Below are positions 1-38,400 of a DNA stretch of 64,000 nt, piece by piece. The stretch covers positions 1 to 64,000 of the forward strand of contig JAFMDN010000001.1 in the NCBI GenBank assembly GCA_017857235.1, given 5' to 3'. The stretch is from Methanobacteriota archaeon. GTDB taxonomy: Archaea > Thermoplasmatota > Thermoplasmata > Thermoplasmatales > GCA-001856825. Below the pieces are notes generated by a model, which did no database searches, was not told the DNA's origin, and worked only from the letters and a program-made list of their open reading frames with translations. The first letter of the stretch is position 1, and each line of letters starts with the position of its first letter. A program made the translations under genes and the position numbers.

Positions 1-135
1 AGGAGAAGCCTTTAACCTTATACACAAAATTTACGGTCTCTGTCGAATTATGAATTATGGAACAGAATATCAATGAGAGTTCAAACACATTAAAGTTCAA
101 AGAAAATTTATATAACACCATTAAATTCCGTACGA

Positions 136-220
136 GAGGAATGGCGTTTCCTCCATAACCACTGAGTAACAACTCAGTTGATAACGCCTACGAATGACAG
201 TTGATAACGCTTACGGATGA
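136..220 (+). repeat. Structured element upstream of the Ehr-like operon: hairpin GAGGAA/TTCCTC (136-153), hairpin ACTGAGT-AACA-ACTCAGT (161-178), long-range GGCGTT/AACGCC pairing (143-148 with 183-188), and a 23-nt tandem duplication (175-197 and 198-220, 2 mismatches)
   Basis: Read directly: cagttgataacgcctacgaatga / cagttgataacgcttacggatga; actgagt aaca actcagt; ggcgtt...aacgcc. Confidence 0.75.
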
Positions 221-11390: not shown

Positions 11391-11989
11391 TATCCAATCA
11401 TCCTTGCCCTTATTAGACCTCTTATCGGTACACCTAAAATTTCATCTTTTTCGGTTTTATTTACAATTACCACTATTAAAACTGGTTCTCCACCTTCCGA
11501 TTTAACTGCTTCAATAGCTTTTGAAACAGTTTCCCCGGTGCTCACCACGTCATCCACTATGACTACTTTCTTTCCAGTTACCTTTGCATAATTGCTAGAA
11601 AATGAGCCTTCCCCTTTATGTGGAGACGGCCTAAATATGGCGATTTCTTTCCCAAGTATATCTGATATGAATGTGGCAAATGGAATTCCATTTATGGTAA
11701 TACCTAATATTGTGTCGGGCTCAATCCCTCTGCTGTAAAGTTCTTCGTTAATAATGTCTGCCATGATTTCTGAAAGATAATAGATTCTAGAACTGTATAC
11801 ACCTATGCTCCTCCAGCCTATTTTAACATCCCTGGGTGCCTCTTTGCCTTTATATTCACCACTCAGGAGCCATAGGATAGTGTTCAATGATAAATGCATT
11901 TCCGTTGAAATTTCCTTGTCACTCAACCCTTTTTCCTTTAATTCTTTGGCCTTTTTAGCTAATTCTTCAATGCTTTTCATATTAATCAC
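11390..11989 (-). CDS. gfcR: HTH plus PRTase regulator (PyrE-like / GfcR family); translation may start at 11980
   Basis: N-terminal HTH LAKKAKELKEKGLSDKEISTEMHLSLNTILWLLSG; PRPP motif VVIVDDVVSTGETVSKAIEAVKSEGG. Confidence 0.85.
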   Translation of the reverse strand: MINMKSIEELAKKAKELKEKGLSDKEISTEMHLSLNTILWLLSGEYKGKEAPRDVKIGWRSIGVYSSRIYYLSEIMADIINEELYSRGIEPDTILGITINGIPFATFISDILGKEIAIFRPSPHKGEGSFSSNYAKVTGKKVVIVDDVVSTGETVSKAIEAVKSEGGEPVLIVVIVNKTEKDEILGVPIRGLIRARMIG

Positions 11990-11991
11990 CC

Positions 11992-12046
11992 TCAGTACTC
12001 ATAGGGGTCATCACAGCACTAGCTCAGCTGACCCTCTTTTCATCAT
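11992..12046 (-). ncRNA. Box C/D guide sRNA (core C to D; ends not defined)
   Basis: Minus strand 5'-ATGATGA(C)-aaagagggtcag-CTGA(D')-gctagtgct-GTGATGA(C')-cccctatgagta-CTGA(D)-3'; both guide spacers exactly 12 nt. Confidence 0.85.
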
Positions 12047-12126
12047 TCTATTTGTAATATATGTTATCTATTTAATTTTATAGGATTTCCCAAATTCAAG
12101 CAATTGTGAATAATAGAAATATGTAA

Positions 12127-36244: not shown

Positions 36245-37613
36245 TAAATGTGGAGTAGTTGCGCTATTAGAAGACAGTGGGGTAGAATATAGATTAATCC
36301 AGTCCCTGAGGATCCTGCAGCATAGGGGTCAGGAATCTGCTGGTATTTGTATTTACAATGGTAAGAATTTAAAGGTCTATAAAGGGATGGGTCTTGTCAG
36401 GGAAGTATTTTCTCAGATAAAGATAGATCAAACAGGGGATAGGGGAATTGGACACATCAGGTACAGCACTGCTGGTTCTTCCGTAATAGATAATGCACAA
36501 CCTATATTTTCTAGGGTTGGAAAATATGAGATAGCAATGGGCCACAATGGAGAAATAGTAAATGCAGAAGAGATCAGGAATGAACTTGAATCTAAAGGTT
36601 ATTCATTCAATACTACATCAGATACTGAAGTAATCTTGAGGCTACTTGCTATAAATCTCGCAAGGGGGGAGGATATAATAGATGCAATGAAACTAACATT
36701 CAGTAAAATTAGAGGTGCATATTCCCTAGTTATAATGATAAATGAAAGGGTTTTTGGTGTTAGGGATCCCAATGCTATTAGGCCCCTGGCAATTGGAAAA
36801 ACTAAAAAAGGTTTTGGAATTGCATCTGAAAACGTTGTATTTGAACAACTTGGAGGTAAAATTATTAGAGATTTCTATCCTGGTGAAATTATTGAGTTGA
36901 CGGAGAATGGTTATAAAAGTTATAGGTTTGGTAATGAATCCCCAGCACATTGCATGTTTGAATATGTTTATTTTGCAAGGCCTGATTCCACAATAGATGG
37001 TAGAAACGTATTTGAAGTAAGGAAAAAAATTGGAGAAATACTTGCTAGAGAATGTCCTGCTGATGCAGATATTGTAATCCCGGTACCTGATTCTGGGAGA
37101 TCCCATGCCTTAGGGTATTCCATTGGTTCGGGAATACCTTTTGTGGAGGGTTTAATAAAAAATAGGTATGTTGATCGCACTTTTATTATGCCAACACAAA
37201 ATAAGAGGGAAGATGAACTTGATATAAAGCTCAACCCTATAAAGGAAGTTGTACAGGATAAAAGAGTTGTCCTTGTGGATGATTCAATTGTACGCGGGAA
37301 TACAATGAGGAAGATTGTTAAACTTTTAAGGGATGCCGGAGCTAAAGAAGTTCATGTAAGGGTTGGGTCCCCACCAATAAAATATCCTTGTTATCTCGGG
37401 ATAGATATGAAAACCAAGGAGCAATTCGTGGCCAAGGAAGGTAAAAGCCTTGACGAACTGGCAAAGGAATTTGGTGCTAATAGCGTTGCTTATGTTTCAA
37501 TAGACGGATTGGTGGAAGCAATAGGATTTGAAAAAAATAATCTTTGCCTTGGCTGCCTCATTGGGAAATATCCAATACCAATTACTAATTTGAATGCAAA
37601 CAATTTTACCTAA
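36165..37613 (+). CDS. purF: Amidophosphoribosyltransferase PurF; true start uncertain, mature Cys at 36249-36251
   Basis: [16 protein letters not shown]...[56 protein letters not shown]. Confidence 0.93.
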
Positions 37614-38400
37614 ATTCCCGTTTTATTTTCTCTATTTTTTCTTTAGTCCTCTTGGGTATATCTGATTTAATTCCTGCCAAATCGGCTCTTGCGGCTTTCA
37701 CAATGCCGTTGGCATAAACTCTGGCAATTTTTCCTGCTAGTTTCCTAGGCGCTTTATATATGTCTGGTATTTCATATATGACCCCGTGCTTTGGAGGGGT
37801 GCCCTTTCCTTTTTTAAATCTAAAAAAGGCTTTTTCTGCACCCAATATCTGTATTGCACTTGATGAACTCATAGCAATTTCTTTTATTCCACCTGATAAA
37901 CTTATGAGCCTTGCAGTAACTTTATGTCCAATGAGGGAAGACGTATTGGGAGCATTCCTTTCCACATATGCCTTAAGCATAGAATCCAATTTGTCCCTGT
38001 AATTCAGCAAATTTTCTTCTAACTCTTGAAAGAGCTTTGTTGCTCCTGGATCTATCTTATCGGAATATTTTATCAGAGTTTCTGATTCCACTTTTTTCAA
38101 TGTCACAAAATTTATGAACTTGTCAATTTCATCAATCATTTTAACAAGCTTATCTATAATTTGGTCTTCCGTTATCTTTTCTCTCATTATACTTTTGTTA
38201 ATGGCGCTTGTAAGTTCCTTTATATTTTCCAAGTCTAAATTTTTATTGACCAGTGAATCTGTGAACACTATAGTTTCTCCATTATATTCAGATCTGCCTT
38301 CTCTTAATAATTCCAAATATATTTTCATAAATTCATCTTTCGATATTTTTATTTTCCTGACGCCATCACTCAATTCGTCGTAGCTAACTAGATAAAGCAT
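37606..38400 (-). CDS. C/D box sRNP core protein Nop5 (Nop56/58 family)
   Basis: ERNAPNTSSLIGHKVTARLISLSGGIKEIAMSSSSAIQILGAEKAFFRFKKGKGTPPKHGVIYEIPDIYKAPRKLAGKIARVYANGIVKAARADL. Confidence 0.93.
   Translation of the reverse strand: MLYLVSYDELSDGVRKIKISKDEFMKIYLELLREGRSEYNGETIVFTDSLVNKNLDLENIKELTSAINKSIMREKITEDQIIDKLVKMIDEIDKFINFVTLKKVESETLIKYSDKIDPGATKLFQELEENLLNYRDKLDSMLKAYVERNAPNTSSLIGHKVTARLISLSGGIKEIAMSSSSAIQILGAEKAFFRFKKGKGTPPKHGVIYEIPDIYKAPRKLAGKIARVYANGIVKAARADLAGIKSDIPKRTKEKIEKIKREFR

Follow-up and report, generated by a model that had tools for sequence, protein, structure and literature searches.

A box C/D guide sRNA of the sR-tMet/sR49 type in the gfcR leader of two Thermoplasmata families, with elongator tRNA-Met and 23S rRNA as likely targets

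The minus strand of the 64-kb stretch of DNA analysed here (the window) carries an element strongly supported as a genuine archaeal box C/D sRNA with two guides, of the sR-tMet/sR49 type, located in the 5' leader of a gfcR-like gene for a putative regulator of gene expression. Its D guide most likely directs 2'-O-methylation of C34, the wobble base of elongator pre-tRNA-Met, and its D' guide most likely directs methylation of C1920 in 23S rRNA. The features concerned are as follows.

11992..12046, minus strand: box C/D guide sRNA, from the C box through the D box (pattern scan, Rfam, alignment, class-wide model search)
12046-12040, minus strand: C box ATGATGA (TGATGA core invariant in the alignment)
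12039-12028, minus strand: D' guide, 10 nt of which pair with 23S rRNA TGACCCTCTT, with C1920 at the predicted methylated position
12027-12024, minus strand: D' box CTGA (sequence and alignment)
12023-12015, minus strand: spacer, 9 nt
12014-12008, minus strand: C' box GTGATGA (sequence and alignment)
12007-11996, minus strand: D guide, 10 nt of which pair with ACTCATA/GGG of elongator pre-tRNA-Met, with C34 at the predicted methylated position
11995-11992, minus strand: D box CTGA (sequence and alignment)
11990-11985, minus strand: plausible Shine-Dalgarno-like (SD) GGTGAT, between the D box and the start codon
11390..11980, minus strand: gfcR-like HTH-phosphoribosyltransferase gene (PRK02277, E 1.7e-62), start ATG at 11980
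12069..12075, minus strand: TATA-like TTAAATA, lying 29-30 nt before the C box
37606..38400, minus strand: homologue of Nop5/Nop56, a core box C/D RNP protein (Pfam Nop, E 1.2e-30)

Boxes and guides lie at every position given in a preliminary description of the element, which had also judged both guides ideal in length; each does span 12 nt between boxes, but only 10 nt of each pair effectively, the nucleotide beside each D box being unpaired. As in archaeal box C/D sRNAs generally, the C, D', C' and D boxes follow in order with guides of ~10-12 nt, and the guides are complementary to stable RNAs with the target nucleotide at box+5. The canonical double-guide pattern occurs once in the 64-kb window and in 0 of 200 simulated windows (first-order Markov; strict and medium patterns). 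Folding of window stretches was uninformative (z of -1 to -1.9), as expected for a C/D RNA.

The exact D-guide 10-mer ACTCATAGGG has four genomic occurrences, including the sRNA itself and a 101-nt intron-containing tRNA that reads TCGGA-CT-CAT-A/GGGATATATT.../A-TCCGA, identified here as elongator tRNA-Met with a 37/38 intron, the junction (slash) being placed by reading of the stem. The guide pairs with A31 to A37 and three bases into the intron, which puts C34 fifth from the D box; like those of sR-tMet and sR49, it spans exon 1 and intron and lies outside the tRNA gene. Since splicing would take away three of the ten pairs, methylation should come first, an order already argued for this type of tRNA-Met guide: Cm34 of intron-containing tRNA-Met is guided by exonic sRNAs that require pairing with the intron (PMC2584109). 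Pairing with pre-tRNA-Met amounts to 10 bp in 28 of the 28 sRNAs that are linked to gfcR.

Introns of tRNA-Met start with GGG in all loci listed except two, from one Thermoplasma and one Acidiplasma genome, where the elongator tRNA-Met intron starts with AGTT or AGCA (loci L226, L221). In the model search, the reference family to which Thermoplasma and Acidiplasma genomes are assigned gave weak sRNA matches or none. A compensating guide (CTTATGAG plus D box) was sought in 41 Thermoplasmataceae genomes, and a C' box stood immediately upstream in 0 of the 30 matches listed, in a search that covered one register and an intact D box, such that a guide in another register or with a degenerate D box would escape it. 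The pattern suggests that guide and GGG intron motif were lost together in the Thermoplasma/Acidiplasma family.

The D' guide matches its exact 10-mer in helix 69 of 23S rRNA, a sequence invariant in the rRNA loci read, forming 10 bp with C1920 at the fifth position. C1920 is the E. coli number, which we take from established numbering, and the same base is methylated in bacteria by the protein enzyme TlyA. In one relative (L278, L279; G085:C8:58583-58928) the 23S gene is split a few bases past the C1920 target by ~300 nt, which suggests an rRNA intron. Guiding of C1920 is not constant, since D' pairing falls to 6-7 bp in 5 of 16 members of the I-plasma family and DHVE2 group B lacks it. In Aciduliprofundum and DHVE2 group A, 10 bp form between the leader RNA and the C1920 site of 23S; the intron guide of tRNA-Trp there is AAGCGGGTCAG, a better fit to tRNA-Trp. 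Group B leaders have a decayed D' guide (at most 2 bp with 23S), and the tRNA-Trp intron carries AAGAGGGTCAG, a perfect 10-bp C1920 match in the four genomes where it is readable; a single-base change from AAGCGGGTCAG to AAGAGGGTCAG yields that perfect rRNA match. Pairing of the D guide holds at 10 bp in DHVE2 and Aciduliprofundum alike. In DHVE2 group B, the C1920 guide has apparently moved from the gfcR-leader sRNA into the tRNA-Trp intron RNA (leader sRNAs L118, L121, L124, L175; tRNA-Trp introns L186, L188, L190, L191, L196). C/D RNAs are also present in tRNA-Trp introns of the I-plasma family (L237 and relatives), with a degenerate C box (GTTTGATTA) and intact D-guide pairing.

Across the class Thermoplasmata, BLAST recovered the sRNA in 58 of 200 genomes, and a covariance model without base pairs, built from 22 diverse copies, in 230 of 400, some of the weaker matches spanning the C'/D half only. 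In the alignment of these 22 sequences the box cores and CCCTATGAGT of the D guide do not vary, and the D' guide varies little. Outside two families most copies do not adjoin gfcR. In family f3 (L128:3737-3796, minus strand; also L019, L026, L027, L031) the sRNA is convergent with PAN, the proteasome-activating ATPase gene, and lies a few nt past its 3' end.

The gfcR survey covered the window and 80 loci of named genomes. In 28 of these loci (16/16 in the I-plasma family, 12/12 in Aciduliprofundum/DHVE2) the sRNA immediately precedes gfcR; in the remaining 53 it does not, its absence being confirmed by the model in those of the 53 that were searched; viral contigs held only distant gfcR fragments. 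Linked loci share the order TATA-like element, 28-30 nt in most of them, C box to D box, GGTGA-type SD, ATG, and this conserved order in 28 loci of two families bears out the proposal that the sRNA is embedded in the gfcR 5' leader. The first possible ATG had been set at 11989, 3 nt from the D box, and must be corrected: the codon there is GTG, and the MKS... start read from ATG 11980, 11 nt from the D box (9-18 nt in linked relatives), is invariant in 12 relatives. Order and spacing of the TATA-like element were recovered by automatic scoring at 21 of 27 loci and by eye at others; taken singly, most loci, the window included, have a TATA score short of significance, and the constant spacing alone is informative. 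The element predicts a transcription start at or beside the C box, and shared transcription of sRNA and gfcR appears likely; a TATA-like motif of their own is found in only ~20% of archaeal C/D genes (PMC7994747).

Neighbours change on both sides of the pair, indicating that the sRNA-gfcR unit has not simply been carried in a frozen gene block. The upstream gene, usually divergent, varies within and between the two families (yjeF, a gene for an HD-type protein, others), and downstream stands either of two unrelated lysS types, lysS being the neighbour in the window, or a convergent mbf1-like gene. On the GfcR tree the linked state requires two changes, which may be a pair of gains or a single gain plus a loss on the Thermoplasma branch. 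Linkage is absent in most Thermoplasmata having both sRNA and gfcR, and is hence unneeded for the function of either.

It is highly probable that the element is a double guide of the sR-tMet/sR49 type for methylation of C34 and C1920, whose transcript starts at the gfcR promoter and which is freed by trimming around the protected RNP. In complex with L7Ae, Nop5 and fibrillarin, the sRNA would pair through its D guide with the exon 1-intron junction, with 2'-O-methylation of C34 before splicing, and through its D' guide with 23S helix 69, with methylation of C1920. The gfcR promoter would make one RNA, the first ~55 nt of which would form the C/D RNP; box-bound proteins would protect this part while nucleases trimmed the rest, and other RNA molecules from the same promoter would be translated. 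The analysis shows the boxes, the complementarity, the conservation and the order of promoter-like element, sRNA, SD and ATG; methylation itself, the shared transcript and the trimming are inferred. Of the three proteins, Nop5 is the one seen to be encoded within the window, as first described; the ORF is short (264 aa), and the Nop domain is recognised in residues 121-258 only. Elsewhere in the window, a fluoride riboswitch (RF01734) scores above gathering at 128-197, plus strand, upstream of an ORF at 231-1178.

The probability that the boxes arose by chance in an AT-rich leader, or that the leader is conserved for mRNA reasons only, is close to nil. The boxes are short and the guide 10-mers also match unrelated genomic sites; however, none of the 200 simulated windows held the pattern, both guides match stable RNAs at known or plausible methylation positions, and the same RNA stands free, far from gfcR, in many families, homologues that in practice refute such a reading. 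As for the linkage, passive promoter sharing is a reasonably probable account, in which the sRNA and promoter landed before gfcR and have been held there since separation would cost one of them its promoter. A usually divergent upstream gene leaves a single promoter region, box motifs alone suffice for C/D maturation (PMC7994747), and the f3 sRNA, ~1.9 kb from gfcR and just beyond PAN in the same gfcR-mbf1-PAN neighbourhood, is consistent with short-range relocation, although sharing alone leaves unexplained the persistence of a costly 5' overlap in two families with different neighbours.

Linkage that exists for regulation seems doubtful by comparison: L7Ae or the sRNP beside the SD would repress translation, or 3' trimming would destroy the leader, with the level of the gfcR product falling when sRNP proteins are plentiful. 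Such a switch would suit the short distance from D box to ATG in all linked loci and a linkage that survives both neighbour changes and D' guide decay, and it has precedents: L7Ae has been proposed, with reporter support, to repress translation by binding a k-turn beside the SD in the leader of its own mRNA (PMC5539422), and a 5' overlap reduced reporter-gene output (Tripp 2017, as cited in PMC7994747). Yet the D guide alone accounts for conservation of the D half, promoter sharing accounts for the linkage, and gfcR without the sRNA is common. With the predicted C/D k-turn ending a few nt from the SD, one mRNA molecule probably cannot both assemble the RNP and load a ribosome; that this exclusion controls the gfcR product is speculative, and passive promoter sharing fits the data as well as regulation does. 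The earlier suggestion that leader processing links sRNP maturation to expression of the regulator is compatible with the anatomy, given the D box 9-18 nt from the ATG and the 5'-overlap and L7Ae/k-turn precedents, and regulatory coupling of sRNA and gfcR is plausible. The boldest form, in which the complete guide RNA doubles as a cis-regulatory leader and sRNP assembly on the nascent 5' end decides between guide and translated gfcR mRNA, is a little less likely again; if true, maturation of the translation apparatus would be coupled to a metabolic regulator.

On the preferred reading of a double guide released from the gfcR transcript, likely targets can be named for a guide RNA that occurs across the class Thermoplasmata, and a single molecule would serve both the wobble position of a tRNA and an intersubunit-bridge site of the ribosome. 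A C/D RNA in a 5' leader, an arrangement reportedly rare and costly to the downstream gene, has been retained through repeated rearrangement, and DHVE2 offers an apparent natural example of the transfer of an rRNA guide from a leader sRNA to a tRNA intron. Were the regulatory coupling true, the guide RNA would be an mRNA switch too.

Among known systems, the closest are sR-tMet of Haloferax volcanii and Pyrococcus sR49, both guides of Cm34 in elongator tRNA-Met (PMC2584109; Joardar 2011, as cited in PMC4033218). Like the window sRNA, they are free-standing, non-intronic C/D RNAs with a guide that reaches from exon into intron of tRNA-Met and sets C34 at box+5, which requires methylation ahead of splicing. 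Unlike either, the window sRNA has a second guide for 23S C1920 and makes up the start of the gfcR leader. Degenerate boxes and a spacer of 19-21 nt have been reported for the haloarchaeal RNAs, against canonical boxes and a 9-nt spacer here. Rfam sR41 (RF01126) has a D-guide core, CCCUAUGAG, identical to that of the window sRNA, but its D' half is unrelated and the permissive scan gave 29 bits against a gathering score of 54. For sR3 (RF01133) the window scored 41.2 bits, marginally over the gathering score of 41, and the genome search 31.9 bits, below cut-off; the D' half is similar, with a GGGUC core, but the consensus D guide CCGUUGGAGC differs, so the two do not share the same guides. Both sR3 consensus guides look like tRNA-Trp guides, making the name misleading for the window sRNA. 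The pre-tRNA-Trp intron C/D RNA resembles it in architecture, intron pairing, the C34 target and, in DHVE2, a near-identical D' guide (AAGCGGGTCAG or AAGAGGGTCAG), but is encoded inside the tRNA-Trp intron with its D guide directed to tRNA-Trp. The L7Ae autoregulatory leader (PMC5539422) likewise sets a k-turn RNA beside the SD of an mRNA leader, as here, where a k-turn is predicted from the boxes, the D box stands 11 nt before the ATG and the SD lies between; the l7ae leader is a single k-turn in the gene's own leader, not a complete guide RNA. On this comparison by sequence, the window sRNA belongs to the known family of tRNA-Met Cm34 guides, has a second guide for rRNA, and is unusual in its conserved location at an mRNA 5' end.
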